A stretch of DNA of 64,000 bases, taken from the NCBI GenBank assembly GCA_026418615.1, contig JAOAAY010000008.1, positions 1-64,000 on the forward strand, given 5' to 3'. The DNA is from Candidatus Sumerlaeaceae bacterium (lineage in GTDB: Bacteria; Sumerlaeota; Sumerlaeia; Sumerlaeales; Sumerlaeaceae). The notes beneath the pieces are model-generated. The model ran no database searches, had not been told where the DNA came from, and saw only the letters and a list, made by a program, of their open reading frames with translations. This document shows, one piece after another, positions 28,210 through 46,926 of the stretch. A program made the position numbers and the translations under genes. Position 1 is the first letter of the stretch. Each line of letters starts with the position of its first letter.

Positions 28210-30576
28210 TCAGCGCAGATCCACGATCGTGACCGAGCCGCCCCCCTCATTGGGCGTTCCATGGCGGTAGCGTTTGACAAGCGGGTGGCCGCGCAGGTGC
28301 TCGTGCAGCGCGCGCCGGACAGCCCCGGTGCCGTGGCCATGCACCAGCCGCACAAAATTTAATCCGGCGGCCAGCGCCCTATCCAGAAATTGGTCCGTCT
28401 TTTCCAGTGCCTCTTGCACGCGCATGCCGTGCAAATCGAGCGAAAGGGGAACTTCGGCAGGCCGTTTATAGGAAACAGCGCCCGTACCGGCGGGCGGCGG
28501 CGCCGACACCCCCCCGTCGGGCGTGCCCACCTCGGAGGCCATGCGCAGGTCATCATATGCCACTGTGGCCGTCACCTTGCGCAGTCTGACGCGCACGGCG
28601 TTGCGCTGGGGAAGCACTTCCTCCACCGTCCCATCTTCATTGAGGCTGGCCACACGGACCCGGTCGCCCTTTTGCAGCGTCGCAGGATCCGGGACGCCGC
28701 TCGCCCCCCCGTGCTCGCGGCGCTCGGCGACGGCCGCACTCTGCGCCGCTTCGAGTTCGCGCTTGGCGGCAAGCAGTTCCTGTTTGGAGGGCTGGCGGGC
28801 CAGCAAGGCCTCCACCTTCGCACGCAGGGCTGCCAACTCCCGCTCCTTCTCAGCGGCCATTTCCGCCCGCAACTTGCGCCGCTGTTCGGCCAGACGCCGG
28901 CGCTCGGCCTCCATGTCCACGGTGGCCGTCTCAAGCGCAGCGCGCGCCTCTTCCGTCGCAGCCAATTGCGCAGCCAACCGGTTTTCTTTCTCCTGCAGGC
29001 TCAGGATGAGCGCCGTCGCATCCAGTTCGCCCTCCGGCCTCAGCGCCCGCGCCCGCGCGATGATTTCCGGCGGAATGCCCACCTGCTCGGCTACGACGAG
29101 CGCCTCGCTGATGCCCGGCACATCCAGTTGAAGCCGGAAAGTGGGCCGGTGGCTTGTCGGGTCGAGCCGGAACGATGCGTTGCGCCCCCCGGGGTAGCCC
29201 TCGGCCCAGTTCTTGAGCACGGCGAGATGGGTCGAGACGATCGTCAGGGCGCCGCGCTCGGCCAGCGACTCGAGGATCGCCACGGCCAGCGCGCCCCCCT
29301 CGCCGGGGTCCGTGGCCGTGCCGAGTTCATCGAGCAGCACGAGGGCGCGCGGGCCGGCCCGACGCAGGATTTCGCAGATACGCCGCATGTGGGCACTGAA
29401 GGTGCTCTCACCCTCCAGCACGCTCTGCTCGTCGCCAATGGCGGCCAGAATTTCCGTGAACACGGGCAGATGGCTGCGCTTGTCCGCCGGAACGGGCACG
29501 CCGCACTGCAGCATGAGCGCCGTCAGTCCAATAGTTTTCAGTGCCGTCGTCTTGCCGCCGGCATTCGGCCCCGTGATGATCAGCACACGGTCGGCCGCAT
29601 CGAGCGCCAGATGGAGCGGCCGCGACGCGGAGCGATCCGCTGTGTACAGGAGCGGGTGGTGGGCGCCAGCCAGTCCAAGCGGGCGCTCCGGCCCGGTCAG
29701 CACCGGGAAGGTGCCGTCAAATTCCATCCCGAACCGGGCCTTGGCCTGAATGAAGTCGAACTCGGCAAGGATTTCCAGATTCGTCAGCAGAACATTCATT
29801 TCGTCGCGGGCGTGATTGGCCACGCGCAGCAGAATGCGGAAGATTTCCTCGCGCTCGCTCAGTTTGAGGTCGGCCAAATGGTTGGATTCCTCGAGGATGG
29901 CGAACGGCTCGATGAAAACCGTCTCTCCCGTGTTGGAGGAGTCGTGGATGATGCCGGGCACCTTGCCCCGGTTGGTGCTTTTGACCGGCAGGACATAACG
30001 GTCGTTGCGCAGGGTCCAGAAATCGTCCTGAAGATCCCCGCTGTCCGCAAGCGATCGCACCATTTTCTGGAGTTCCCGCTGGAGGCGCTGTTCCGTTGCA
30101 AAAATCTCGGCGCGCAGCCGCTGAAGGGCTTCGCTCGCCGTGTCGCGCACGGTGGCATCAGGCCCGATTTTCTCGTCAATAGACCGGATGAGTGCCGGGG
30201 CGTGATGCAGCGGCATGGCGAGGCTGTGAAGGTTGCGGCAGGTTTCGCGGCGCGGTTCGAGGAATGACCGCATGCGGCCGGCCGTCTCGAGAAAATGGCG
30301 CAGATCGAGCAACTCAGCGGGGTCGAGGATGGCGCGTTCGCGGGCCACCTTGCGCAAATGCAGCGTCACATCGCGCAACTCGTGGATCGGCGGCTCGGTT
30401 CGCTCTGCCAACAGATTCATGTACTCGCGCACCAGCGCGATAGCCATCTCGAGGTCGGCCTCGGCCGTCATGGGCCGCATTTGCTCCACACGGCTGCGGC
30501 CAAGGTCGCACACGCAGCGGGCCGCAAGCAGTTCGCGCACGGCCGGCATTTCGAGCCGGCGTTCGTCAAAACTCAT
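28210..30576 (-). CDS. mutS2: Endonuclease MutS2
   Basis: The 788-residue protein has the MutS2 domain order: a long helical lever/core region from residue 1 to about 310, an ATPase with Walker A ITGPNAGGKTTALK (about 330-343), Walker B VLLDELGTATDP, and then a coiled-coil linker rich in Glu, Arg and Ala (about 520-640). A C-terminal Smr endonuclease domain (about 708-788) shows LDLHGMRVQEALE and LVHGHGTGAVRRALHEHL. It lacks the mismatch-recognition domain I of MutS. MutS2 proteins act in recombination control and in rescue of collided ribosomes. The start at 30576 is typical. The region between it and the oxidoreductase beta gene is 92 bases. Confidence 0.96.
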   Translation of the reverse strand: MSFDERRLEMPAVRELLAARCVCDLGRSRVEQMRPMTAEADLEMAIALVREYMNLLAERTEPPIHELRDVTLHLRKVARERAILDPAELLDLRHFLETAGRMRSFLEPRRETCRNLHSLAMPLHHAPALIRSIDEKIGPDATVRDTASEALQRLRAEIFATEQRLQRELQKMVRSLADSGDLQDDFWTLRNDRYVLPVKSTNRGKVPGIIHDSSNTGETVFIEPFAILEESNHLADLKLSEREEIFRILLRVANHARDEMNVLLTNLEILAEFDFIQAKARFGMEFDGTFPVLTGPERPLGLAGAHHPLLYTADRSASRPLHLALDAADRVLIITGPNAGGKTTALKTIGLTALMLQCGVPVPADKRSHLPVFTEILAAIGDEQSVLEGESTFSAHMRRICEILRRAGPRALVLLDELGTATDPGEGGALAVAILESLAERGALTIVSTHLAVLKNWAEGYPGGRNASFRLDPTSHRPTFRLQLDVPGISEALVVAEQVGIPPEIIARARALRPEGELDATALILSLQEKENRLAAQLAATEEARAALETATVDMEAERRRLAEQRRKLRAEMAAEKERELAALRAKVEALLARQPSKQELLAAKRELEAAQSAAVAERREHGGASGVPDPATLQKGDRVRVASLNEDGTVEEVLPQRNAVRVRLRKVTATVAYDDLRMASEVGTPDGGVSAPPPAGTGAVSYKRPAEVPLSLDLHGMRVQEALEKTDQFLDRALAAGLNFVRLVHGHGTGAVRRALHEHLRGHPLVKRYRHGTPNEGGGSVTIVDLR

Positions 30577-31748: not shown

Positions 31749-33592
31749 GGAGCGTAGGATCCTTTCGAGAGGACGCCCTCGACCACAGTATGCGCGTCGA
31801 GGGGAAGCCCGTTGTAATGCACAATGCCGCCAATGCGCGGCGCAAGGTCGGGATACTCGGCTTGAAGGATTGCGGCGACCTGCGCGTCGCGGTTCTGCTC
31901 GACCACGAAAACCCGCGAGTGCGCCGCGATGAATTCGCGCACGCTGTCGGCGGGCGGCAGCGCACGCAGCCGGAGATAATCCGTCGGGGTTGCGTGCTGC
32001 GTGGCGAGAATGTGCCTCGCCTCGGCAATGGCCTCATCGCTCGTGCCATAGCCAATCAGGGCGGCGCGGGGGTTATCCATCGTTTGGATTGCAGGCTGGG
32101 GCAGATTGTTCCGCGCGCCGTCAATCTTGCGCCGCAAGCGATCCAGGTTGTTCTGCCAGTCGGCCGGCTTTTCCGAACGCTTGGCTGCGTCGTCATGCCC
32201 CGCACCCTGCGTGAAATAGGCCGCCTTCGGGTGGCGCGTACCCGGAAGCGTCCGCCACCCGATGCCGTCGCCATCCACATCGCGGTAGCGCGCGAATCCG
32301 CCGAGCCGGTCGAGGTCTTGGGCTGTCAGCACCTTGCCGCGGTCCATCGGGCGCGTCGGCGGAGCAAACGGTTCGCTCATCCACAGGTTCATTCCCAGGT
32401 CGAGATCCGACATAATAAAAACCGGCGTCTGGAGCCGTTCCGCCAAGTCAAGGGCTTGCATGGCAAACTCGTAGCACTCGGCAAGGGTCGCCGGAATGAG
32501 CAGTGGGTGGCGGGTGTCGCCGTGAGACAGGTAATAAGCCGACATCATGTCGCCCTGACTCGTCCGCGTGGGCAGGCCTGTGCTCGGCCCGACGCGCTGC
32601 ACATCAATGACAACGGCCGGAATCTCGGCAAAATGTGCCAGTCCGACGATTTCTGCCATGAGCGAGATGCCCGGCCCGGAAGTTGCAGTGGCCGCTCGCG
32701 CTCCCGCCCACCCCGCACCCGTCACGATGCCGATGGCGGCCAGTTCATCCTCAGCCTGCACGATGGCGTAGGTCGCCTTGCCCGTTTCGGCGTCATGCCG
32801 GTACTTGGCCATAAAATCGGTCAACGCCTCGGCCAGACTGCTGCTGGGCGTGATGGGGTACCACGCGAACACGGTCAGGCCGCCATACATCAGGCCCAGC
32901 GCCATGGCCGTGTTGCCGTCCATGATGATCTTGCCAGCCGTTCGGTCCATTCGCCGGATCACAAACGGGCGATGCGGCGGCAAGTTGGCTTCGGCCCACG
33001 CGTGACCGGCCCGCGCTGCGGCAAGATTCAGGTCGGCAGCCTTGGGTTTGCCCGAAAACTGCTTGGCTATGGCGCGCCCGACTTCCTCCATGTCCAGTTC
33101 GAGGAGCCACGCCACCACTCCCACATAAATCATGTTCACCACCAGACGCCGCAACCGGGCATCCGGGCAAACCTCCGCCACCAGCCGCCCAAACGGCACC
33201 ACATGGACAATCAGATCATCGCGTGTCAGGTGCTTTTCCAGATCCGCATGAAGCACCAGCGTTGCCCCCGGCCGCAGCGCCGCAATGTCCTCCTCGACCG
33301 ACTCGACATTCATCGCGACAAACAGATCCGCATCGCGTCGCCGGGCCGTCCATCCCTGCGCGTTCGCACGAATGGTGAACCAAGTGGGAAGCCCCTGAAT
33401 GTTGGACGGAAACATGTTCTTGCCGCCAACAGGAACGCCCATCTGAAAAATGGTGCGCAAAAGAACCAAGTTGGCCGATTGGCTGCCGGTGCCGTTGGAG
33501 GTGGCTACCTGAATGACCACATCATTGATGACGGGCTCGTTGTCCTGAGTTGTGTTTCGGAAAGCCGGCTGGGTGCTCGGAGATGCCGTCAT
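31745..33592 (-). CDS. 2-oxoacid:ferredoxin oxidoreductase, fused gamma-alpha subunit
   Basis: The 615-residue protein fuses an N-terminal gamma (catalytic linker) domain of about 200 residues (NGTGSQSANLVLLRTIFQMG) with the pyrimidine-binding alpha domain. The latter shows GNTAMALGLMYGGLTVFAWYPITPSSSLAE, the conserved Glu region AEDELAAIGIVTGAGWAGARA-TATSGPG and RVGPSTGLPTRTSQGD. This is the KorA fusion form found in many anaerobes and thermophiles. With the beta subunit it forms a complex that reversibly converts a 2-oxoacid plus CoA to an acyl-CoA, reducing ferredoxin. The first gene of the operon starts at 33592. Upstream on this strand lies an imperfect inverted repeat that could be a control site. 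Confidence 0.94.
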   Translation of the reverse strand: MTASPSTQPAFRNTTQDNEPVINDVVIQVATSNGTGSQSANLVLLRTIFQMGVPVGGKNMFPSNIQGLPTWFTIRANAQGWTARRRDADLFVAMNVESVEEDIAALRPGATLVLHADLEKHLTRDDLIVHVVPFGRLVAEVCPDARLRRLVVNMIYVGVVAWLLELDMEEVGRAIAKQFSGKPKAADLNLAAARAGHAWAEANLPPHRPFVIRRMDRTAGKIIMDGNTAMALGLMYGGLTVFAWYPITPSSSLAEALTDFMAKYRHDAETGKATYAIVQAEDELAAIGIVTGAGWAGARAATATSGPGISLMAEIVGLAHFAEIPAVVIDVQRVGPSTGLPTRTSQGDMMSAYYLSHGDTRHPLLIPATLAECYEFAMQALDLAERLQTPVFIMSDLDLGMNLWMSEPFAPPTRPMDRGKVLTAQDLDRLGGFARYRDVDGDGIGWRTLPGTRHPKAAYFTQGAGHDDAAKRSEKPADWQNNLDRLRRKIDGARNNLPQPAIQTMDNPRAALIGYGTSDEAIAEARHILATQHATPTDYLRLRALPPADSVREFIAAHSRVFVVEQNRDAQVAAILQAEYPDLAPRIGGIVHYNGLPLDAHTVVEGVLSKGSYAP

Positions 33593-33628
33593 GAAATCAA
33601 CCTGCCCGTTGATGACTTGGTCATGGCG

Positions 33629-33647
33629 CTAATCTCTACCGAATTAG
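33629..33647. promoter_or_regulatory. Short inverted repeat upstream of the oxidoreductase operon
   Basis: CTAAT and ATTAG, separated by nine bases, lie 37-55 bases upstream of the alpha-subunit start, between two divergent genes. The surrounding bases are AT-rich, unlike the neighbouring coding DNA. This could be an operator for a redox-responsive regulator. The arms are only five bases long, so chance is a real alternative. Confidence 0.2.
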
Positions 33648-33848
33648 TAGCGATTTAGTCTTTTTTCTTGGGACAGGTTGAAATTCTCAAAATGCCAACT
33701 CCTATGAGGGCGGATGGAGCGTTATGTTTTTCCGCGGGCGATTCCTGCGAGGAAGTCATTTTGCCATGATCCGACGAACGAGACTTGACGAGACAGGCGC
33801 ACGAACTGTGCCCGCGTGCCAGCCCACCGGACGGCGGCGGCAACGCGG

Positions 33849-35678: not shown

Positions 35679-36428
35679 TCAGAGGCCGTACGCGAGGCGC
35701 TCGGCCAGTTCGATCGGCAGGCCCTGCTCGCGGATAGTGTCTTGGGCGCGGGTCATGTCGTACTTGGTGCGGCGTATTTCCAACCGGCGCGCCTCGCGGT
35801 CGTAAACGCAATAACAGGCATCCGGGTTGCGGTCGCGCGGCTGGCCGACGCTACCGACATTGACAAGATACCGGCAGCCCTCGCGCAGGGTAATCTCCGG
35901 CTTTTCAGGGCAGGAGAGGTTGCCTCCCTCGTTTTCGACGATGAACGGCGTGTGGCTATGGCCGATGAAGCACACGCGCTGGCCGTAATGTTTGAAACTC
36001 TGGCGCGCATCGCCCATCGTAATGATATAATTCCACGCCTCCGGATTGCGCGGCGAGGCGTGGACAAAGAGCATCTCCGAAAGTTCCACCGTCAGCGGCA
36101 GGGCGCGCAAGTATTGCTCGTTTTCCGGCGTGAGGGTTTTCCGTGTCCAGTTGATGGCCCGCTTGGCGACCTCGTTGAAGTAAGTGATATCAATCTTCGA
36201 CAGGGCCGCATAGTCGTGGTTGCCCGCTATCGTCGGGATGTTGCGCTCGCGCAGCAATTCGCAGCATTCGTTGGGATTCGCTCCATAGCCCACCACATCG
36301 CCGCAGCAAACCATGAGATCCACGGACATGCTGTCCAAGCATTGGATCACGCTCTGCAGCGCCTGAAGGTTGCCATGGATGTCCGAAAACACTCCGACGC
36401 GGCGAGGGTTCAGTCCCTCAAGTCGCAT
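35679..36428 (-). CDS. Calcineurin-like metallophosphoesterase
   Basis: The 249-residue soluble protein has the metallophosphoesterase motifs in order: FSDIHGN (D16, H18), CGDVVGYGANP (D44), AGNHD (N70, H71), FVHASPRNP and FIGHSHTPF. The whole sequence looks like the YfcE/MJ0936-type family of small phosphodiesterases with broad or unknown substrates. Its start codon lies inside the 3' end of the FHA gene (11-base overlap), with AGGCAGGG just before it, so it is the last gene of a translationally coupled block. The partnership with the FHA protein suggests a signalling or phosphodiester task, but that is inference. Confidence 0.92.
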   Translation of the reverse strand: MRLEGLNPRRVGVFSDIHGNLQALQSVIQCLDSMSVDLMVCCGDVVGYGANPNECCELLRERNIPTIAGNHDYAALSKIDITYFNEVAKRAINWTRKTLTPENEQYLRALPLTVELSEMLFVHASPRNPEAWNYIITMGDARQSFKHYGQRVCFIGHSHTPFIVENEGGNLSCPEKPEITLREGCRYLVNVGSVGQPRDRNPDACYCVYDREARRLEIRRTKYDMTRAQDTIREQGLPIELAERLAYGL

Positions 36429-37677
36429 ATTCCCTGCCTGTCAATTTCCTGAGTTGTTCCGCGGCCCGTTTACGGATGAGCGGGCTTTTGTTTTGCAAGG
36501 CCTTTTCCCAGATGGCGATTTCCTGCTCCCGATCAGGCAGTGGACGATGCGGCACTTGGTAGTCTTCCGCCGGCCCGCTCAAACCTGCCGCCTCGGAGAC
36601 GGGAACAGGCTGCGCCTCGACCTCTCCCGCGAGGGCCTGCTGAACCGCGTCCGCCGGCTGCGCACCCGTGTCCGAGGTGCCACGCGAGGAAAACTCGACA
36701 GTGTGGTACTCCTCACCGCGCTCACCGCGGCGTTGACGCAACTTATGGCGTTTGCCGCGCCCCATCGGCTGGGACGGCTCATCAATCTCTGCCGGTTCCT
36801 CGGGGGCTTCATCTGACCCGATCCGAGCCAGCGCGGCGTCCGCAGCGGGAGATTCGACTGGCTCCGGCGTTTCTTCATCGGGCACCGGGGATTCTTCCAC
36901 CGGAACCTCGAATTCCGCCGCCTGCGGCTCAGCCGCCGGCGGAGCAGGTGCCACGCCTGAAAAAATACTGTCCTCCGCCGCCAGTTCACGCGGCACACGG
37001 CCTGTCGCCGGCGGAGCAAGAGGCTCCTCGGCCAGCCGAAACTCGCAACGCGTGCTACCAAACTCGATGACATCGCCCGGTTTGAGACGAACCGGTCCCT
37101 GCAAGGGTGCGCCATTGAGCCGGGTCTTGCGGTAACTGCCATAATCCTGCAATTCGTAACCGCTCGAGAGCGCGCGGATCACCGCCTGTTTCTTCGACAT
37201 GAACCAGTCGTCGGTGATGACAATGTCGTTGTTCGGCGCTTTGCCGATCGTCGTTTCGGTTTTGGTCAGGCTGAACTCTTTCCCAGCCAGTTTTCCTTTC
37301 GTTACAGCGAGAACGCCCTGCGGTGTGCGCTCGACCACCACCGTGCGATCGGCGCCCAGCGCGTCCACAATCAGTTCCTCGTCAGATAAAACCGTGTTGA
37401 GGAACTGAATCGTGTACTTGCCGAGCGTGATCACATCGTTGTCGGCAATCTCGGTCTTCGAAACGCGCACATTGTTGACATAGGTGCCGTTGGCGCTGTT
37501 CAGATCCGTCAGGATGTATTTGCCATTTTGGCGTCTCAGCCGCGCGTGGTTGCGCGACACGCTGAGATTGTCCACGACGATATCGTTGTCGCGCGACCGG
37601 CCGATGCTGATGATATCCTTGTCAAAGACATACCGCTGCACCACGGTATCGCCCAATTTAAGGATCAGTTCAGGCAT
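36418..37677 (-). CDS. Dual FHA-domain protein
   Basis: The 419-residue cytoplasmic protein has two FHA domains. The first (residues 1-95) has the phosphothreonine-binding set IGRSRDNDIVV with R27, SRNH (41-44) and N63. The second (residues about 120-215) reads IGKAPNNDIVI and SKKQA where an intact domain would have GR and SRxH, so its key Arg and His are replaced by Lys and Gln; the later Asn in TRLNG remains. A Pro/Glu-rich linker (about 217-300) is probably disordered, then comes a basic patch (GRGKRHKLRQRRGERG), and the C-terminus (380-419) is a helical repeat-like segment. It probably binds phosphoproteins. It is downstream of a YhaN-like ATPase gene (72-base gap) and overlaps the phosphoesterase gene. 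Confidence 0.88.
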   Translation of the reverse strand: MPELILKLGDTVVQRYVFDKDIISIGRSRDNDIVVDNLSVSRNHARLRRQNGKYILTDLNSANGTYVNNVRVSKTEIADNDVITLGKYTIQFLNTVLSDEELIVDALGADRTVVVERTPQGVLAVTKGKLAGKEFSLTKTETTIGKAPNNDIVITDDWFMSKKQAVIRALSSGYELQDYGSYRKTRLNGAPLQGPVRLKPGDVIEFGSTRCEFRLAEEPLAPPATGRVPRELAAEDSIFSGVAPAPPAAEPQAAEFEVPVEESPVPDEETPEPVESPAADAALARIGSDEAPEEPAEIDEPSQPMGRGKRHKLRQRRGERGEEYHTVEFSSRGTSDTGAQPADAVQQALAGEVEAQPVPVSEAAGLSGPAEDYQVPHRPLPDREQEIAIWEKALQNKSPLIRKRAAEQLRKLTGREYAT

Positions 37678-37749
37678 AATGCATCAGCCCCTGCTTTGTG
37701 TAAGAGGATGGCATTGATGGCTCAAAAGTCGGGCAGAATCGGGGTGAAG

Positions 37750-40626
37750 TCAAAGGCTTTTGCCCGGGTTCTCCAAGCGGGTTATGTGCAAGGATTTGGC
37801 CAGATCCGGATGCGTTTGGACAAGACGCTCGAAACGCCACCCGTGACACGACAAAACCAAGACTTGATGGCGCGAGGCAAGGGCCGATAGAAAACGCATC
37901 CCAGCCACAAATCGCTCGTCGTCCCAGTGTCCGAATGGCTCGTCAAGCGCCAGAGGCAGCAGGCCGCAATGTTCCGAAAGGTACTCGCTGACGGCCACGC
38001 GGAGGGCCAACGCCATCTGGCCCCGCGCCCCAGTGGACAAGTAGGCGAGTTCTCGGGACGACAGCCGCCGGCCGGCCTCGTGTGAGAAAACGCTCACATC
38101 GAGATCCTCCGTCACCGTCACATCCGAGTAACGATCCGTAATCTGGCTGATGATGCCGCCAACCCCGCGCTCGATTTCCACCGCCCAACGAGAGAACACC
38201 TGCTCGCTGATAGCGGCCAGTTCCTCGTGGGCCAATGCGGCCGCCTGCTGGAACCCTGCAATAGTGTCGCGCAGGGTCTCCAAGCGTGCAATCTCGGCCG
38301 TGTGATTAGGCCCTTCGCGCCGCCAGCGCTCAATGGCTTGGTCGGCATCTTTAAAAGCGTTGACCCGCCGCAGTCGCAAGTCGTGCAACCGTGCTTTCAG
38401 ATCGTCGAGGCGCGCTTGCAGTTCGGCCCGGGGTGCAGAGGGACGGATAGAGGCCAGCGAGGCATCCTGCGAGACCAACTCGGCCATGCGCGCGCGGGCC
38501 GCGGCTGCAAGCCGCTCGAGGTTCGCGCACTCTTCCTCGGTGGACAGGCCACCCGGCGGCCGTTCGCCGGCAAGACGGTGATACTCCGCCGCGAACTCGC
38601 ACCGGCGCTCGTACTCTGCATAAGCATCGCTTAGGCTTTGCCGGCCGCTGGGCGGGCCGATAAGCGCTTCCAAAGCCGCGCGCCGGCTCTCGGCGGAGGA
38701 CTGGGCAGCCTCCAGTTCCTCCCGAACGCGCGAGGCCTCCGACTCGAGGCGGGCCGCTGCTTCGCTGACCTCGACGCACTGCTCGAACGCGCCAATCGCG
38801 CGCTCGATTACGGCTGTGTCCAAACCTTGCGGCTCAGCGTCGGGCACCGCGAGGCGCACCAACTGCCATGCTTCGTCTGCGGTGTGGGCCGCCGTAGCCT
38901 CGGCTTGTTCCAGCGCCTGTTTGGCGGCTTGGTACTCGCCGGCTTGCCGGGCCCACGGGCCAAGGTCTCGCAAATGGTCAAGATAGGCGGCGTCCAAGCC
39001 ATGGCGCTGCAAGGTCTCCTCAGCCTCGCTGCGCAGCGCGGCGAGTCGCTCGCTCAAGCGGCTTGCCTCGGCGGTCGCGGCCAGTTGCTCCTGACGCGCC
39101 GGGTCGCGCTGCTCGGCCTCTACGCGCTGAGCCTGCTTCCACTGACGCAAACCGACGACGGCCGCTGCGACGCCGGCCAGCAGGATCAGGCCGGCGACCA
39201 CTTGGGCCCAGAGCAGGTTCATAAGAATGAGCAGGACAGCGCCGACAACGCTCGCCGCGCTAGCGCCAAGCAGCATGTAAGCCCGCCCTTGTAACCGCTC
39301 GCGATCGGCCCGGGCCGTTGCGGCACGCGCCTCAGCCTCTGCCGCCCGGCGACTGGCTTCGGCTGCCGATGCCTCCAGTTCCGATTTGCGCTGATGGTAG
39401 GTCAGCAGCATCTGGCGCTCCGGTTCCGGCAGCGCGTCGAGTTTTTGCGTGACCTGCTGATAGGCTTCGAGGGGCATTCCCTGAGCGGCCATGGCGGTTC
39501 GCAGCGTCTCGCAGTGCTGTCGCTGACGCGCGACCTCCTCGCGCGCTGCCTCAAGGCGGGTCATGAGCGCCCGCAGCCGCTCCACGGCGGCGCGAGAGGC
39601 CCGCTCGCGCAAGGCCGGGGCAAACTGCGCCAGTTTGCCAGCCGTCTCCTCCAAGGCCGGTTGCATGTCCTCGGCAAGGCGCCGTCGCGCCTCCTGCGCC
39701 CGGTCCGATTGAGCGAGCCACTCGGCATGAAGCCGCCGGGCTTCATCCCGGCGCGACAAATCCATCGCGGCGTAGGGTTCTAACTCGGCCATGCGGGCCT
39801 CGCGCGCGGCCTGAGTCTCGGCCAGCCGTGCATGGCGCTCCAAGGTTGCTTCGGCCTCCGCGGCCTCCGCGGCGAGACATTCGTAGTCGGCGCGCACCAG
39901 GGTCTCCGAGAGGGCCTCAATCTGCGCGTCCAGCCCTTCTGCCGCCGCAATTTCCTGCGCGCAGCGGGCGCGGTCCGCCTCCAAATTGTCGAGTCTCGAC
40001 TGCTCTTCTCGCAGACGCTCCTCAATGCGGCTCAGGAGCGTCGCGGTCTGCAGCGGGTTTGAGGAGAACTCGTCATAGCGGAGTCTCGGCGTTTTCAACG
40101 CCTCCAGAGCGGCTCTGACGGGCGCGTCCTCGCGTCGGCGATCCGAGACGGCTGCCCGTTCGATCACCTGCACGAGTTCTCCCCGGTCGAGCGCCTCCCG
40201 CTCGTCCTGCCGCAAGAAAAAGCATTGAAGGAAACTGGCCTGGGACATCCGGAAGAAACGCTCGCCAAAAGACTGCCGGTCCAGCGGCACGGGAGTCCCG
40301 GCTTTGAGGTCCGTCAGCGTGGTGCGCGGCGTGTTGCCAAATTCATTGACAAGCAGCAACCGGCGGCCGCCGGGTTCTTCGAGTTCCAGTTCCACGCCGT
40401 ACGACCCGGTCCCTGCCCACGGCGCATACTTGTCAAGCGGGTGCAGGTCATTGCGCCGGCCACGGCGGCTGCGCTGCGGCGGATAAAACGAATACAGGAT
40501 GGCATCCACGAGCGTGGATTTGCCAGCCTCGTTGCGCTCGCACACAACATTGCAACATCCCGGTTCGAAGCGGAAGGTGCCCGAAAGCCGCCCGAAAGAA
40601 CGCAGCGTGACACGGCGGATCAGCAT
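37750..40626 (-). CDS. YhaN/SbcC-like coiled-coil AAA-type ATPase with membrane segment
   Basis: The 958-residue protein has an SMC-like ATPase head split between the two ends. The N-terminal P-loop is E30-R-N-E-A-G35-K-S-T; the first glycine of the classic motif is replaced by glutamate. The ABC-type signature is LSTGARGQMALALR near residue 865, and Walker B is LPLALDEPFGHWDDER near 885-900. Between them is a long coiled coil (about 190-800) interrupted by two hydrophobic segments (about 447-495), as in Bacillus YhaN, so the coil tip appears anchored in the membrane. YhaN-type proteins pair with YhaO/SbcD-type nucleases; here the nuclease gene ends 33 bases upstream. The start ATG follows that gap closely. 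DNA processing at the membrane is inferred. Confidence 0.92.
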   Translation of the reverse strand: MLIRRVTLRSFGRLSGTFRFEPGCCNVVCERNEAGKSTLVDAILYSFYPPQRSRRGRRNDLHPLDKYAPWAGTGSYGVELELEEPGGRRLLLVNEFGNTPRTTLTDLKAGTPVPLDRQSFGERFFRMSQASFLQCFFLRQDEREALDRGELVQVIERAAVSDRRREDAPVRAALEALKTPRLRYDEFSSNPLQTATLLSRIEERLREEQSRLDNLEADRARCAQEIAAAEGLDAQIEALSETLVRADYECLAAEAAEAEATLERHARLAETQAAREARMAELEPYAAMDLSRRDEARRLHAEWLAQSDRAQEARRRLAEDMQPALEETAGKLAQFAPALRERASRAAVERLRALMTRLEAAREEVARQRQHCETLRTAMAAQGMPLEAYQQVTQKLDALPEPERQMLLTYHQRKSELEASAAEASRRAAEAEARAATARADRERLQGRAYMLLGASAASVVGAVLLILMNLLWAQVVAGLILLAGVAAAVVGLRQWKQAQRVEAEQRDPARQEQLAATAEASRLSERLAALRSEAEETLQRHGLDAAYLDHLRDLGPWARQAGEYQAAKQALEQAEATAAHTADEAWQLVRLAVPDAEPQGLDTAVIERAIGAFEQCVEVSEAAARLESEASRVREELEAAQSSAESRRAALEALIGPPSGRQSLSDAYAEYERRCEFAAEYHRLAGERPPGGLSTEEECANLERLAAAARARMAELVSQDASLASIRPSAPRAELQARLDDLKARLHDLRLRRVNAFKDADQAIERWRREGPNHTAEIARLETLRDTIAGFQQAAALAHEELAAISEQVFSRWAVEIERGVGGIISQITDRYSDVTVTEDLDVSVFSHEAGRRLSSRELAYLSTGARGQMALALRVAVSEYLSEHCGLLPLALDEPFGHWDDERFVAGMRFLSALASRHQVLVLSCHGWRFERLVQTHPDLAKSLHITRLENPGKSL

Positions 40627-40659
40627 GGCGCGCCGGCTCCTGACATCCCCATGTGGCGC

Positions 40660-41889
40660 TCAGCAGACATGGCGCGGCCGCAATTCCCGCCCGTGAAGGG
40701 CATCCAGGCCCAGATGCAGCGCCTGACGCACAAGGCGTTCGCGTGCCGGGTCGCCGGCCGCTTCATCAAGCAAGCGTTTCATACGGGCGGCGAACTGCCC
40801 TTCGATGCGCTTGCATGCCGTCTCGTCATGCAAAAGGGCATCCAAATTATAATCCGGCTCGACCCGCGACTGGTCTACCACCGCGTGAAAGGCAAGGTCG
40901 TCGAGCCACGCTGGGTCAAAGTCAAAACCGGTCACATCGGGGTGCGTGCGCCCCGTCAGGGTGATGTAAAGAATGTCCTCCGCTGATGCGCCGGCAGCCG
41001 CGACGGCCCCCGAAATCCGCTCTTGCGCCGCGGCGGCGTTCAGAAGGCTCGCGTCCACCTCCACCTCGAGCCGCAACACCCGCCGCGGACTGACAGAAAT
41101 CCGTTTGAGTGATCCCGGAACCACCCCGCCCTCGGCGATCTCACCCACCAGCACTCCATGGTCTCCCGTCTCGTCCAGACCACGCGGCACGGGCACGCCG
41201 GCATAGGCGCCCCTGACCCGCCCCGAATCGTCCTCGATGACCGAGTAGCGGTGGTAGTGGCCCAGCGCGGCATAATCAAAGCCGGCCGCCAGCAATTCAT
41301 CTCGCGAGAACGGCGCTGTCAAAGCGCGCTCCCCGCGACCGGCTACGAGATCGTCACGCGAGCCATGCAAAACAAGAATATTGATCATGTCCGGCCGTGC
41401 CTGCCGCACGCCGGCCAAAATCCGGTCCGTGCGGGGGACATTGGCTTCGAAACAACAGCCGTAAAAATCCACATCGGGCAGCGCAGCGACCGTGCGTCGC
41501 TCAAGCCGCGGCGACCCAAAGACCACCACATTGCGCGGATGCGGGCGCCCCGCCTTGCTTTTGTAATAAGCCGGGTTGTGATAACTGAACGCGTTGAACG
41601 GATCGTGGTTGCCGGGAGCCACGAGGACCGGCACCGGAGCCAGCAAAGCGAAGGTGTCATAGAGAAATGTGGCACTGGTAAATGCTACCGATTCGTCGTC
41701 CCACAGGTCGCCCGGACACAACACAACCTCCACCTGCTCCTCGCGCGCGATTTCGACCATGCGCGTCAGAGCCGCCTCGATATCCCGGTTCAGGCGCGCA
41801 CGCTTGTCAGGAGGAAATCCCAGCCGCGAGCCTGCAAGGGCACTGTCAAGGTGGCAGTCGGAAAATTGCAGGAATCGCACTCTGCTCAT
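40660..41889 (-). CDS. SbcD/YhaO-like DNA repair metallophosphoesterase
   Basis: The 409-residue protein begins with the Mre11/SbcD-type phosphoesterase core: FSDCHLDSALAG (D11, H13), LCPGDLWDD (D61), VAPGNHDPF (N94, H95), LVLHGSRDD and ALGHYHR. The C-terminal part (about 250-409) corresponds to the cap or ATPase-binding region. It precedes the coiled-coil ATPase gene by 33 bases on the same strand, the normal nuclease-ATPase arrangement. The product is probably a manganese-dependent nuclease working with that ATPase. The start at 41889 gives the family N-terminus; a longer frame to 41940 adds unlikely residues. Confidence 0.93.
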   Translation of the reverse strand: MSRVRFLQFSDCHLDSALAGSRLGFPPDKRARLNRDIEAALTRMVEIAREEQVEVVLCPGDLWDDESVAFTSATFLYDTFALLAPVPVLVAPGNHDPFNAFSYHNPAYYKSKAGRPHPRNVVVFGSPRLERRTVAALPDVDFYGCCFEANVPRTDRILAGVRQARPDMINILVLHGSRDDLVAGRGERALTAPFSRDELLAAGFDYAALGHYHRYSVIEDDSGRVRGAYAGVPVPRGLDETGDHGVLVGEIAEGGVVPGSLKRISVSPRRVLRLEVEVDASLLNAAAAQERISGAVAAAGASAEDILYITLTGRTHPDVTGFDFDPAWLDDLAFHAVVDQSRVEPDYNLDALLHDETACKRIEGQFAARMKRLLDEAAGDPARERLVRQALHLGLDALHGRELRPRHVC

Positions 41890-41965
41890 GGCGTCCGATA
41901 CAGGCGGCCGCGCGGGCCGATGGCAACGGGTTTCATGCATGAATCACCGGCGAAGGGCTTGCCCA

Positions 41966-43702
41966 TTAAAAGTGAAATTCCAACCGCCGCCAATGGCGAA
42001 GACCGATGATCATCGGCAAAACGATTACGCCAAGGTTGACGACCGCCAACGCCGTCAGCCACGGCCACGCCCGAACCAGCAGACCCATCGCGCGCGGCCA
42101 GTCCTGTGCTATCGGCGCCAGCCAGCCGCCAGTCTCGTTCATCACCATGAAAACCGGCGGCACCAACAGCGCGATGTTCGCAATGATGTAGCCGAGGCTG
42201 ATAACGATGTTCAGCGTGCCGCCAAGGCCGTTGGCGATGACGGCCGGATTGTCCTCCTTGAAATTCGGGAAGGTCGCTCCGAGCCCCACGGAGAGGCTCG
42301 TCAAACCCACCGCCAGCGTCAGGAAAGTCCCCAGCCCCACGACAGCCATCACAGGCCGCACATTGAGAACATAGTTGGAGAAGAGCATCAACGAGCCGCC
42401 CACAAACAGCGTTCCCGCCACGCACAGGCCGTACTTTTCCCAGATGAGCCACCGGCTTGCCGTCGGCGAGAGGCCGATCACCCAGTACTGCTTGCCTTCA
42501 AGGCTGAGCATCGGATACACAAAACGGGTTGTCAGGATGGACAACACAAAACAGGTGGCCGCCAGATTGAAAAAGGACAGAATGGTGGGCCAGTGACGGA
42601 TAAAGACCTCGATGCCCTCCAACTGGCGCGACATCCCGCGAATGTTGGCAATGTAAATGACCAACAGGCCAAACAGGATCACCAGTTGCGACCACTGCGC
42701 CGGGTCGCGCCAGAAGGTCCGCATGTCCTTGCCAAGCAAACCTTTCACAGGTGCGGGAAACAGCATGAAGACGCGGTCGAACAGCGGAAAAAGCGACCAC
42801 CTCGAGGTCGCGTAAGTGGGGCTTGAGGTCTCCTTGGCCAGCGCCCAGCCCTTGTAGTACAGGCGCGGCGCCAGCCACAGACAAACCTGCAAGGCCATGA
42901 GCGCCGTGCTGAGCAGGCACAAAAACCAGTAGCCGGCATCCCACCACCGCGCCCGCGACGCGGCCTCAAGCCCGCGCGCCAGCCAATAGTTGGGCAGCAG
43001 CGGCACGCTGCCCACATTCAGCAACGCCATGATCTGCGAAAAATCCTGAAGATTGGCGGTGACGACCATCGTCCTCAGGCCCATGAGCCGCACAATGATG
43101 GCCGTAATGCCCAGAGCCCCCGCCAGCAGGACCAGCGCGTAAAGCCGCGCTTTGCGCGCAGGCAGGTAGGCACTGATGAGCATCGTCAACATCGCGCCCA
43201 AACAGGCCGGTATGGCGAGAAAAGGAAAACCGAGCACAAAAGCCACCGGATAAAAAGCCGGCGGAGCGCCCTTCGCCACGCCGTAGGCGGCGAAAATCGG
43301 CAGGCTCAACAGCACGAACGCCCACGAACTGAAGAACAAAGACTCGGCCAATTTCACCGCGAACAGGCTGCGTGGCCGCACCGGGAACGCAAAAAGGAAT
43401 TCCGTCTCCTTGGAAATATAAGTCGTGGTCAGCGTGATGATGAGATTCGAGAAGATGAGCATCGAGAAAAACGCCAGCAGGACAATCCCCACGAGCCGCT
43501 CGAGCAGCGGCGGCCCGAACGGCTCCTGACGCAGCAGAAACCGGAAGATGAACCAGAAGAAAGCGCCGCCGCCTCCCGCGACCAGCAGCAAGGTGAACAT
43601 GCCCGCCGTCAGGTGAATCCAAAGGTACGACCGCATCTGCTCGAGAATGTTGGACACGATGCGGGCGCGCGTGCGCGCGACATTGGCGATGAGGCCGCTC
43701 AA
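41966..43702 (-). CDS. ABC-exporter-like multi-spanning membrane protein (ABC-2/ABC_export type)
   Basis: The 578-residue protein has about 12 hydrophobic helices arranged as two halves, a pattern of fused ABC exporter permeases. A basic N-terminal stretch (ARIVSNILEQMRSYLWIHLT) resembles ABC export permeases, and a central loop (YATSRWSLFPLFDRVFM) separates the halves. It has no ATPase domain. The transported molecule is unknown, but membership of a leftward block with DUF2079 and another polytopic protein suggests envelope lipid or glycan export. Its ATG overlaps the stop of the upstream DUF2079 gene by four bases. An ATP-binding subunit is not adjacent; the nearest candidate is the ABC ATPase at 59933-60916. 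Confidence 0.78.
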   Translation of the reverse strand: MSGLIANVARTRARIVSNILEQMRSYLWIHLTAGMFTLLLVAGGGGAFFWFIFRFLLRQEPFGPPLLERLVGIVLLAFFSMLIFSNLIITLTTTYISKETEFLFAFPVRPRSLFAVKLAESLFFSSWAFVLLSLPIFAAYGVAKGAPPAFYPVAFVLGFPFLAIPACLGAMLTMLISAYLPARKARLYALVLLAGALGITAIIVRLMGLRTMVVTANLQDFSQIMALLNVGSVPLLPNYWLARGLEAASRARWWDAGYWFLCLLSTALMALQVCLWLAPRLYYKGWALAKETSSPTYATSRWSLFPLFDRVFMLFPAPVKGLLGKDMRTFWRDPAQWSQLVILFGLLVIYIANIRGMSRQLEGIEVFIRHWPTILSFFNLAATCFVLSILTTRFVYPMLSLEGKQYWVIGLSPTASRWLIWEKYGLCVAGTLFVGGSLMLFSNYVLNVRPVMAVVGLGTFLTLAVGLTSLSVGLGATFPNFKEDNPAVIANGLGGTLNIVISLGYIIANIALLVPPVFMVMNETGGWLAPIAQDWPRAMGLLVRAWPWLTALAVVNLGVIVLPMIIGLRHWRRLEFHF

Positions 43703-45081
43703 CGGGCCGCGTCCTCCGGCGAAAACACATACAGGTCCGCGCGATCATGAACAAGACGGCGACGGCCAGCCTGTGCATCGTCCATCAGGCCGCGCGCGAG
43801 GGAGATGAAGGCGTCGCGCTGAAGACCATGCGGCGACTCTAGATCCAGAAAAACCCATGCCTCCGGCGGCGGAGGGGCTTCGGCGACGAGAGCGCGAGCG
43901 TCCGGGCGTGTCGGTGTGACGCCCCACAACCCAAATTGCAGCACGGCCGGCCCCTCGCGCGGCAACACATCGCGTGCCACTTCGAGACGGTACAGGTCCC
44001 GGCTCGTCACGGGAAAGGGCACACGGCGGTAGCCGTCGGTCCGGGTCGGGAGGAACATTTGCGCGAATCCCACGACGCCCATGTACAGCGCCAGCGCCGC
44101 CATTGTGCGTCCGCGAGACCAGCCAAGCCGCTCCAGCCAGCGGGCCACCGCACCGGCACCCGCCGCCGTGGCAAGCGCCAAAAACGGCAGAAACGGGTAG
44201 GAATAATAATAGAGCAGGTTGCGCATGAACGGGAAGCCAAGCAGCACGACCGGCGCCGGCACCACCGCCAGCACGAGCGCACGCCCCCCCAGTAGCGGCA
44301 ACAAACCGAACGAAGCCACCAACAGGCCCAGCGCAGTCAATCCCTCCCGACTCACCCCCCAGCCTGCCGCGCGTGCCGCGTAGTCGCCAATGTGGCCCTT
44401 TTGTCCGGATGCGGCCAGCGCCATCGCTGCCGCCGTCACGAGACCGTAGACGAGGCACAGGCCCGCAAGGCGCAGGGCGCGCACACGCCAAACCCGCTCG
44501 GGTGCCGTCGCCCACATCCACAGCGCGAAAGCCAGCAGCCACACGGCGGCATCTTCCTTTACGGACAGAGCCAGCGCCGCGGCCGGCCAGAAATATCGCG
44601 CCGGGCCGCGAGCCGCCGCGATCGCGCACAAAGCAAACAGCACATACCAGACCTCAAAATGGTTGGCCAGTTGAACGGACCCAGTGAAATGATTGGCCAG
44701 AAACAGCACGCCGCATGCCACCGCGGGGGCCGCACTCAGCCCGCACTCGCGAGCCAAGTAATAGATAGGCAAAGGACACACGGCCAGCGCAAGCATGTAA
44801 CCGGTGACGAGCGGCACCGGATAAACGCTGAGCGGAACGAAAGGCAGCAGCAGCAGCAAAAACGGCGTGAAGTGCCATGCGAAGTGGTTGCCCCCCGTCA
44901 AAGGCGAAAACATGAATCGCCCGCCCAGCGTATTGGCGAGGCAATAATGGATGTTTCCGACATCCGCGAGGTACCAGCGTCCGCTCTGCCACTGCGTCAG
45001 CGCGATCCATTCCATCCACACAAACGCCGCGGCACATAGCGCTCCCGCTGCCAGCCATCCCCAGCGGTCTGTCATGGCCAC
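43699..45081 (-). CDS. DUF2079 membrane protein
   Basis: The 460-residue polytopic membrane protein matches DUF2079. A first loop has NHFAWHFTPFLLLLLPFVPL with histidines as in the family. Then come VQLANHFEVWYVLFALCA and the family-typical ALSVKEDAAVWLLAFAL (Lys-Glu-Asp), plus a C-terminal soluble part with KGLD-free sugar-binding-like strands. DUF2079 is thought to have a GT-C-type fold and be a glycosyltransferase; no activity is established. The gene overlaps the preceding membrane gene by ten bases and the exporter-like gene by four, so the three are translated as one unit. This tight coupling suggests one pathway. Confidence 0.88.
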   Translation of the reverse strand: MAMTDRWGWLAAGALCAAAFVWMEWIALTQWQSGRWYLADVGNIHYCLANTLGGRFMFSPLTGGNHFAWHFTPFLLLLLPFVPLSVYPVPLVTGYMLALAVCPLPIYYLARECGLSAAPAVACGVLFLANHFTGSVQLANHFEVWYVLFALCAIAAARGPARYFWPAAALALSVKEDAAVWLLAFALWMWATAPERVWRVRALRLAGLCLVYGLVTAAAMALAASGQKGHIGDYAARAAGWGVSREGLTALGLLVASFGLLPLLGGRALVLAVVPAPVVLLGFPFMRNLLYYYSYPFLPFLALATAAGAGAVARWLERLGWSRGRTMAALALYMGVVGFAQMFLPTRTDGYRRVPFPVTSRDLYRLEVARDVLPREGPAVLQFGLWGVTPTRPDARALVAEAPPPPEAWVFLDLESPHGLQRDAFISLARGLMDDAQAGRRRLVHDRADLYVFSPEDAAR

Positions 45082-46760
45082 AGCACCGCCCTCACGCCAT
45101 CCTGTTCGAAAGCCAGCCGCCCCGGCATGTCGCGCATCTCATCCTGCCACCTTTGCCATTCCATGGGTCCAAGCAAGAGGCAGGTGACATGCCAGCGCCG
45201 CAGCGTCCCCGGGTCGAACCGGTGCCAAAGAGTCTCGATGGCGGCGCGCTGGCCGTCATAATCCGGCGAATTGAAATGGTGCGCTGCCAGAGCGCGGTGA
45301 TGCGTCAGCACGGGCACAAGCGTCGCCACCCGCGAATAAGGCTCCTGCAGCCCGATGGCCGCAACCGTCCGCGCCGGACGGACGGCGTCCAGTCGCTCGA
45401 GGAGCCGAAGCGTGTCCCCGTGCGCGGCAAAAACGGGGTGATGCTGGTTGAGCGTCGCCATCAGGCGATGCAACGCCAACAAGTTATCTGGCAGATGCAG
45501 TATGAGGAGCACGGACAGGAGGGCCGGCACCGCCCTGCGCCAACCGCGCGCGGCCAGCCAGCGAGCGAGGCGCCACACCCCCAGCGCTGAAAAGACGGCC
45601 AGCGGCACATGGAGATAGCCGCGCAAGAAATGCATGGGCACATGCGGCTCGGCAAACCAGAGAAGGCGGTCGTGAAACACCAGCGCCGACGCACACCCAA
45701 GCCACACGGTCATCAGCCGAACGCCCCGGTGCCTGCGCCAGTCTGCCCGAAAATCCGGCGACAACCAGTAACACCACGGCAGCAGCGCGAGCAGCCCGAA
45801 GGCCGGCATCAGCATGCCTGCAGTCATTGGATGATTCAGCGCCGCGCGAATCTGCGCGGCCACCGACGCGTGTTCCGGAAAACGGGGCAACCAGAGCAGA
45901 TAATAAAACAAAAACACGGCATTGAGCAGGGCGCACGCGCCCAGAGCGGCCAGCCCTTCGCGCCAGCCCTTTCGGGCCGCCTCCACCAGCAGGAAAACGA
46001 GCGCGATGAGGCCCAGTTCCAGCCCGGTGAACGGATGCGCCCACCAGGTGAGCAGCACGGTAACCAACGCGGCCCATGTCCGGCCGCGAATGAGCAGCAA
46101 GGCCGCGCCGAAAAACAGCACATGGTAGGCGCACTCCACGGTGTACTGCAGATTCCGGAAAACGCTGGCGCTCCACTCGCCATAGCCGCCCTCCGCCTGC
46201 GCGACCGCAGCCGGATAACCAGCCAGCCATTGTGCCGGCGTGAAGGAAAAATCCGGAGATCCAAGATTGAGCAGATAGTCCAGCGCCATTTGCTGGGCGG
46301 CCACCAGCCACGCCAGCCCTCCTCCCGCCGCAATGACAAGCGCGGCCCACCGCCGCGGTGCGCGGAGCGGCAGCGCCGCCATCCCTACGCGCATCGCCAG
46401 CGCCAGCATCGCCGCGCCGAGCACCAGCCGCCCCCCGGCGTCCAGCGCGGTGAGCGGCACGGCGGTCAGATGCCAGAGCCACCCGGCAACCAGAAACACA
46501 AAATGCGTGTACACCCGCGGGCTTGCAGGATCCGGAGAATAGGGCGACGCATAGAACAGGCCGTTGCCATTCTCGAAGATTTCCCGCGCGCATGCGTGAT
46601 AGACCGCCTGATCCACCTGCGTGAAACCCAGCGCGGTCCACCCGGCCGGCAGAGCGCGCGCCGCCTGTGCCAGCGCAAAGCAATAACCGCCCGCCAGCAC
46701 AACGGCCACCGCCTCTGGCCAAAGCCCTCTCAGGTGCCGGTTCCACCGCGCACAGTTCAT
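45072..46760 (-). CDS. Polytopic membrane protein, GT-C-like, unknown substrate
   Basis: The 562-residue integral membrane protein has about eleven helices. The first loop contains DQAVYHACAREIFENGNGLFYASPYSPD and PRVYTHFVFLVAGW, a layout seen in GT-C-like glycosyltransferases, where aspartate and histidine in this loop are functional. A C-terminal soluble part from about residue 465 has RTVAAIGLQEPYSRVATLV and a closing helix. I do not recognise a named family. Its start at 46760 (MNCARWNRHL) leaves 166 bases to the divergent ruvC gene. A frame extension to 46811 is less likely. It is the first gene of the leftward membrane block and overlaps the DUF2079 gene. Confidence 0.8.
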   Translation of the reverse strand: MNCARWNRHLRGLWPEAVAVVLAGGYCFALAQAARALPAGWTALGFTQVDQAVYHACAREIFENGNGLFYASPYSPDPASPRVYTHFVFLVAGWLWHLTAVPLTALDAGGRLVLGAAMLALAMRVGMAALPLRAPRRWAALVIAAGGGLAWLVAAQQMALDYLLNLGSPDFSFTPAQWLAGYPAAVAQAEGGYGEWSASVFRNLQYTVECAYHVLFFGAALLLIRGRTWAALVTVLLTWWAHPFTGLELGLIALVFLLVEAARKGWREGLAALGACALLNAVFLFYYLLWLPRFPEHASVAAQIRAALNHPMTAGMLMPAFGLLALLPWCYWLSPDFRADWRRHRGVRLMTVWLGCASALVFHDRLLWFAEPHVPMHFLRGYLHVPLAVFSALGVWRLARWLAARGWRRAVPALLSVLLILHLPDNLLALHRLMATLNQHHPVFAAHGDTLRLLERLDAVRPARTVAAIGLQEPYSRVATLVPVLTHHRALAAHHFNSPDYDGQRAAIETLWHRFDPGTLRRWHVTCLLLGPMEWQRWQDEMRDMPGRLAFEQDGVRAVLWP

Positions 46761-46926
46761 GACCGCGCCCCTGCCACAACGCCGACGGCCATGCACCGGC
46801 AAAGTGAGCATGGAAGTCTGCCCGGGGGCATCAAGTCAGGCCGGCCGATGCTCCGTCCTCGCGGTTCGCGTTTTCAGTCCATCTTTTCCCTCGCCCTCTC
46901 GCGACTCCTGCCCCAACACTGTGGCC

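Follow-up and report, generated by a model that had tools for sequence, protein, structure and literature searches.

A dual-FHA/phosphoesterase gene pair of Candidatus Sumerlaeota and its YhaO-YhaN-like neighbours: probably two adjoining modules rather than one machine

Introduction

The described systems to which the locus reported here can be compared are the YhaO-YhaN (SbcE) pair of Bacillus subtilis, SbcCD, the eukaryotic Mre11-Rad50-Nbs1 (MRN) complex, the OdhI/GarA FHA regulators and bacterial operons that join a CHASE2-Ser/Thr kinase and a PP2C phosphatase to a dual-FHA protein. FHA domains bind phosphothreonine through a conserved G-R pair and conserved S, H and N residues. A hydrophobic hairpin in the middle of the coiled coil is a trait of the YhaN (AAA_27/SbcE) family, and the apex turn of YhaN lies at the position that corresponds to the zinc hook of Rad50. 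For Bacillus pumilus, one published account places yhaO and yhaN in a LexA/SOS group and treats yhaONM as a cluster with a putative role in double-strand-break repair (PMC3896406), and for B. subtilis another lists YabT, a Hanks kinase, and SpoIIE, a phosphatase, among the interaction-network contacts of SbcE (YhaN) (PMC4205851). Such contacts keep alive the hypothesis of phospho-control for SbcE-type proteins generally, without FHA proteins. Here we examine a block of four genes at positions 35679 to 41889 of a 64,000-nucleotide stretch of a Candidatus Sumerlaeota genome (contig JAOAAY010000008.1; this whole stretch is referred to as the window). The block encodes a YhaO-like nuclease, a YhaN-like ATPase, a protein with two FHA domains and a calcineurin-like phosphoesterase. 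From a comparison with 39 genomes of the class, 8 of them from the window's family, we conclude that it probably consists of two adjoining modules, forming two transcription units, rather than of one machine.

Results

All four open reading frames (ORFs) were confirmed on the minus strand. They are given below in order of transcription, and we refer to the first two as module 1 and to the last two as module 2.

40660..41889, minus strand: YhaO-like Mre11/SbcD-type metallophosphoesterase nuclease, 409 aa, module 1
37750..40626, minus strand: YhaN-like Rad50/SMC-type ATPase, 958 aa, module 1
36418..37677, minus strand: dual-FHA protein, 419 aa, module 2
35679..36428, minus strand: calcineurin-like phosphoesterase, 249 aa, module 2

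The YhaO and YhaN genes are separated by 33 nt and YhaN and FHA by 72 nt, and the end of the FHA gene shares 11 nt with the beginning of the phosphoesterase gene. An alternative in-frame start of YhaO is possible at 41940; alignments of its homologues begin at ∼41889. The initial annotation of this DNA had named the same four parts, which Pfam and solved-structure matches bear out, and had given the 72-base spacing and the overlap correctly. Its view of the genes as one leftward block stands in so far as they share a strand and keep their order in 5/7 YhaN-bearing genomes of the family, and gives way where the block splits into two modules.

The two modules have different distributions. At thresholds of E 1e-25 for the FHA protein and E 1e-60 for the phosphoesterase, each was detected in 35 of the 39 class genomes, and the two genes are adjacent in 33 (27 adjacencies were read directly and 6 from coordinates, in G017, G021, G025, G032, G035 and G037). 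As for the six genomes without a shown adjacency, the genes lie at contig ends in G018 and G011, a phosphoesterase and no FHA gene was found in G003 and G006, and neither gene was found at these thresholds in G023 and G024. Beyond the class, the pair is present in another genome of the phylum (G039) and in one of another group (G048). Sumerlaeota loci found by name (Candidatus Sumerlaeota or BRC1) contained the pair in 17/17 cases, with YhaO-YhaN alongside in three, and the full four-gene order was seen in L081 (QZM1.54), L082 (SKW119) and L083 (SSF23). FHA and phosphoesterase are a core pair of the class and, in our reading, a core operon of Sumerlaeota.

A strong YhaN was identified in 7/8 genomes of the window's family and in no other class genome; the family genome in which it was not found, G006, is 66% complete. 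YhaO adjoins YhaN in all seven, and in 13/13 of all genomes with both. Six other genomes, G010, G015, G024, G039, G044 and G046, carry YhaO-YhaN pairs that are more distant, none of which has an FHA-phosphoesterase pair beside it within the 8.5-18 kb examined. The modules touch in G000, G001, G004, G005 and G007 and lie apart in G002 and G003; that is, they adjoin in 5/7 family genomes with YhaN, in 5/13 genomes with YhaO-YhaN and in 5/33 class genomes with module 2. Conversely, 28 class genomes have module 2 with no adjoining YhaO-YhaN, YhaO-YhaN lacks an adjoining module 2 in 8/13 genomes, and G003 retains YhaO-YhaN with no FHA gene found. The initial annotation had suggested a membrane-linked DNA-processing complex controlled by phospho-signalling, to be checked by neighbourhood conservation and contradicted if the FHA and phosphoesterase genes were unlinked to the nuclease pair in most relatives. 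Since the pair adjoins YhaO-YhaN in so few of the class genomes and most YhaO-YhaN genomes are without it, that is the situation at class level, and the suggested complex is not upheld: the modules are spread separately, and FHA has a promoter-like element of its own (below). The modules would have come to adjoin in the family's common ancestor and would mostly have stayed together in the family since, presumably with no physical complex joining them.

Within module 2 the two genes are closely tied. In every one of the 16 loci with both frames intact and both genes picked, the window included, the FHA stop and the phosphoesterase start overlap, by 8-32 nt, and the two genes would be translationally coupled and probably transcribed from their own promoter. 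Because the phosphoesterase branches are longest in the FHA-less G003 and G006 (0.94 in G003 and 1.14 in G006, as against 0.04-0.52 among the remaining members of the family) and the YhaO branch of G003 is ordinary (0.34), the partner of the phosphoesterase looks to be the FHA protein and not the nuclease. The phosphoesterase matches Pfam Metallophos/Metallophos_2 (Metallophos_2 at 4.3e-20; 72.7 bits against a cut-off of 27), and its calcineurin-like metal-site motifs are invariant in 16/16 aligned sequences. Hanks kinases are present in 39/39 class genomes, with 12 in the window's genome. Most likely, the first FHA domain would act as a phosphothreonine reader alongside a candidate phosphatase, in a circuit fed by these kinases, and we infer that the pair joins this reader to a phosphatase whose fold is not that of PP2C. 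In three class genomes the gene that follows the pair belongs to one cluster (L054:8386-10416, L051:3945-5993 and L053:3-353), the scanned member of which (L054) is an NAD-dependent DNA ligase.

It is possible, though the less probable assignment, that the phosphoesterase is instead a nucleotide or phosphodiester hydrolase, acting for example on diadenosine polyphosphates, which is scaffolded or regulated by the FHA protein, the pair then being no reader and eraser of protein marks; this can be true together with two separate modules. Among its relatives in the PDB is an entry labelled diadenosine tetraphosphatase (2qjc, 2.1e-7), and others are of the YfcE/MJ0936 type; the NCBIfam YfcE model scores 43.9 bits, below its cut-off, and the best PDB match, 3rqz (1.9e-60), is an entry named only Metallophosphoesterase. 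A protein substrate is favoured by matches to PDB 1g5b, a serine/threonine protein phosphatase (6.4e-6), and to the NCBIfam protein Ser/Thr phosphatase model PRK11439, the latter at 41.2 bits far below its cut-off of 326, and by the dual-FHA relatives elsewhere, which sit with a protein phosphatase.

The FHA protein matches Pfam FHA over two stretches (9e-39). Its predicted model consists of two FHA sandwiches, a long disordered linker and a C-terminal two-helix element; Foldseek places OdhI/GarA as the closest solved folds (5e-10), and OdhI/GarA is also the strongest NCBIfam match, below cut-off. Its parts are as follows.

37396..37674, minus strand: FHA domain 1, residues 2-94, phosphothreonine-site residues intact
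37033..37317, minus strand: FHA domain 2, residues 121-215, with K146 and Q164 in a partly altered site
36439..36531, minus strand: C-terminal two-helix, HEAT-like element, residues 383-413, conserved

The site residues of FHA1 (G26, R27, S41, R42, H44 and N63) are invariant in 14/14 and 17/17 aligned rows, and the domain has both the predicted fold and the conserved G-R, S, H and N residues of a phosphothreonine reader. In FHA2 the window's family has GK and SKKQA/AKKQA where most other families have GR and SKKHA, so that the canonical Arg and His are lost throughout the family, whether or not the gene is linked to YhaO-YhaN. The C-terminal element is predicted with a pLDDT of 86-96, and W390, A393, L394, N396, S398, R402, A405, L409, T413 and G414 are invariant in 17 rows. 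In G002 the FHA gene (L047:7559-9008) is split over two frames, probably by assembly error or by a real break, and in family f12 a beta-CASP nuclease-like gene precedes FHA.

A further conserved feature lies at the junction of the modules.

37748..37754, minus strand: TTTGACT, -35-type promoter-like element of module 2, which overlaps the stop codon of YhaN

The element lies 77 nt before the FHA ATG. Upstream regions were available for 35 genomes, of which G020, G025 and G039 yielded no start and were left out; FHA starts were set by pattern, and those of G005, G010, G013, G015, G021 and others are displaced, by anything from a few codons to some tens. Looking within 150 nt before FHA in the remaining 32, we found TTTGAC(A/T) in 12, at 62-99 nt before the start, as compared with a mean of 0.37 and a maximum of 3 in 2000 shuffles. 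It precedes FHA in 6/6 family genomes with the gene, one of them being G002, in which YhaN lies at a different locus. As background, the same motif precedes 3/207 other ORFs of at least 120 aa in the 21 loci used, and 2/104 in family loci. The pattern AAAANCNTTTGACA occurs genome-wide at 38 sites among the matches listed, in 21/39 genomes; six of these sites precede FHA (in G001, G004, G007, G019, G028 and G030), and in G001, G004 and G007 that is the sole copy. The exact AAAANCNTTTGACA pattern is unmatched at FHA in G000, G002 and G005. We infer that the element probably functions in a promoter of module 2.

Several observations weigh against our reading of the block. The window's copy of the element is its weakest form, with a -10 box matching at best 2/6 positions, and in the family as a whole a good -10 box is rare, only G005 reaching 5/6 (TATATT, 16 nt after the element). 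The element was seen before FHA in only 12/32 genomes, with 0/6 in family f13 and 0/4 in f7. Between YhaN and FHA, the window, G004 and G005 all lack a terminator-like site, for which reason read-through from YhaN to FHA is possible there; terminator-like sites in the window otherwise exceed shuffles (29 against 14.1). The four genes stay together in G000, G005 and G004 though their outer neighbours differ, which could reflect selection for linkage. The solved relatives of the phosphoesterase include the diadenosine tetraphosphatase besides a protein phosphatase, leaving a protein substrate putative, and the branch-length argument draws on two genomes, of which one is the incomplete G006. Taken with the conserved element, a separate start at FHA with some read-through from YhaN appears to fit best.

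The block could instead be one functional unit, in which the FHA protein would read phosphothreonine on membrane-anchored YhaO-YhaN or on partners, the phosphoesterase would reset the mark, and kinase signalling would control DNA-end processing. The order kept in 5/7 family genomes amid differing outer neighbours, the missing terminator and the YabT and SpoIIE contacts of SbcE speak for it; we nevertheless think it rather unlikely in view of the 28 class genomes in which module 2 does without adjoining YhaO-YhaN, the 8/13 genomes and G003 on the side of module 1, and the promoter-like element of FHA itself.

Still less likely is a longer transport or membrane operon of which the block forms the end, its genes being neighbours by read-through alone. 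The same-strand run does continue upstream as three overlapping ORFs (41966-46811) that end 25-76 nt before YhaO (one without a Pfam match, one DUF2079 and one ABC_tran_2), because of which the block has no clear upstream boundary and a longer transcript is possible, but these ORFs are absent from the YhaO neighbourhoods of relatives, where pseudopilin genes are found instead (G001, G002 and G004, with one such gene in G007). Very improbable, finally, is an independently assembled MRN-like machine of the window's family, with the FHA protein as an Nbs1-like subunit recruiting a membrane-anchored Mre11-Rad50 complex to phosphorylated partners and the phosphoesterase as its reset enzyme.

In favouring two modules, we take module 1 to be a membrane-anchored Mre11-Rad50-like nuclease-ATPase pair that would most likely act in DNA-end processing, by analogy with what is reported for Bacillus SbcE. 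The YhaO-like protein matches Pfam Metallophos (1.8e-10) and SbcD/Mre11 in the PDB (1.2e-14), and is 41-63% identical across the 6 other genomes of the family. Residues D11, H13, D61, N94-H95-D96, H175, H211 and H213 are invariant in 8/8 aligned sequences, and form the Mre11/SbcD metal-site motifs DxH, GD, GNHD, H and GHxH. The YhaN-like protein, encoded by a single-copy gene in its own genome, matches Pfam AAA_23 (4.2e-9), SbcC_Walker_B and Rad50 in the PDB (3.8e-11), and Foldseek matches its predicted model to Smc5/6 and Rad50, including Rad50 chains of MRN; it has the Rad50-like head, the long coiled coil and the adjoining Mre11-like partner of a YhaN-type protein. One further part was predicted from hydropathy and the model.

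39139..39285, minus strand: predicted transmembrane hairpin of the YhaN-like ATPase, residues 448-496

This stretch and its counterparts in 8/8 homologues are strongly hydrophobic. In the model, helices 401-468 and 472-541 run antiparallel, and the turn at 468-472, within the hydrophobic stretch, forms the coiled-coil apex; the overall shape of the model is uncertain because its alignment had four rows and its pTM is 0.40. The membrane insertion that had been proposed initially is thus supported by both sequence and model. In G001 the YhaN gene (L049:8639-11347) lacks the first ∼97-100 residues in frame, probably through an assembly error or a real break.

A defence system (Lamassu, Gabija or Septu) was considered and rejected: PADLOC gave only weak SMC/AAA matches, such as LmuB, whose 39.5-bit match covers only some of the coiled coil and head, and no match for YhaO or the FHA protein. 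Directly upstream of YhaO in G001, G002 and G004 is a pseudopilin cluster of five pilin-like ORFs together with an LTD-domain protein, and in G007 one pilin-like gene lies upstream of YhaO at a contig end.

L045:1483-7616: pilin/LTD cluster
L046:3-5963: pilin/LTD cluster
L049:13114-19001: pilin/LTD cluster
L048:7217-7633: single pilin-like gene

Four of the pilin-like ORFs of L045 have prepilin methylation motifs and two have T2SSG matches. SbcE reportedly has a role in competence, which makes these neighbours a lead. We do not claim such a role for YhaO-YhaN, since the LTD-domain protein, found in 34/39 class genomes, is located away from YhaO in G000, G003 and G005.

Elsewhere in the window, long plus-strand ORFs at 28390-30267 and 31790-33658 (625 and 622 aa) face large genes of the minus strand and are likely GC-rich antisense frames.

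Discussion

Our analysis puts two probable modules in place of an attractive four-part system and shifts attention to the dual-FHA/phosphoesterase pair, which is the main new point; the YhaO-YhaN pair is ordinary. In our searches of the literature on FHA domains with Sumerlaeota or phosphoesterase operons, we came across no account of such a pair. If the phosphoesterase removes phosphothreonine marks, the pair would represent another bacterial route to Hanks-kinase circuits. The junction with an SbcE-type complex at family level is a specific candidate for phospho-control of DNA-end processing.

Compared with known systems, the window resembles MRN in bringing together Mre11-like, Rad50-like and FHA proteins. 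It differs in the membrane hairpin at the coiled-coil apex of its ATPase, in the conservation of the FHA pair apart from the nuclease pair, and in its FHA protein, which has no BRCT domain by Pfam scan and so lacks the FHA-BRCT arrangement of Nbs1 (the Mre11-binding motif was not searched). The nuclease-ATPase architecture is shared with SbcCD; identity with SbcCD was rejected, as YhaO scores 41.8 bits against the curated cut-off of 77.65 for the SbcD model TIGR00619, and a separate SbcD above the cut-off is encoded on contig C42 of the same genome. B. subtilis SbcE (yhaONM) likewise has an Mre11-like nuclease adjoining an SMC/Rad50-like ATPase, a likeness by description; the window's YhaN reaches 17.5 bits against the Pfam AAA_27 gathering score of 22, and 5/8 aligned homologues match AAA_27 at E 0.01.

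On the side of module 2, OdhI/GarA are the closest solved FHA folds, and the window's protein differs from them in having two FHA domains, the long disordered linker and the C-terminal helical element. Operons of a CHASE2-Ser/Thr kinase, PP2C and dual FHA occur in Nitrospirota and Elusimicrobia, and PP2C with dual FHA in a Deltaproteobacterium. Among annotated loci, L099 and L124 encode CHASE2-kinase, PP2C and FHA, L100 encodes PP2C with a 509-aa upstream ORF outside the scan, and L106 has a Ser/Thr kinase downstream of dual FHA and no PP2C among the ORFs scanned. The phosphoesterase was found in 0/63 dual-FHA loci of other phyla in the flanks examined. The dual-FHA proteins of these operons are homologous to that of the window (28-35% identity) and stand beside a phosphatase, as the window's does beside a candidate one; there it is PP2C, whereas here a calcineurin-like phosphoesterase stands beside the FHA gene and no kinase adjoins. 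In this uncultured phylum, to which the pair is core, the phosphoesterase thus seems to take the place that PP2C has in other phyla.

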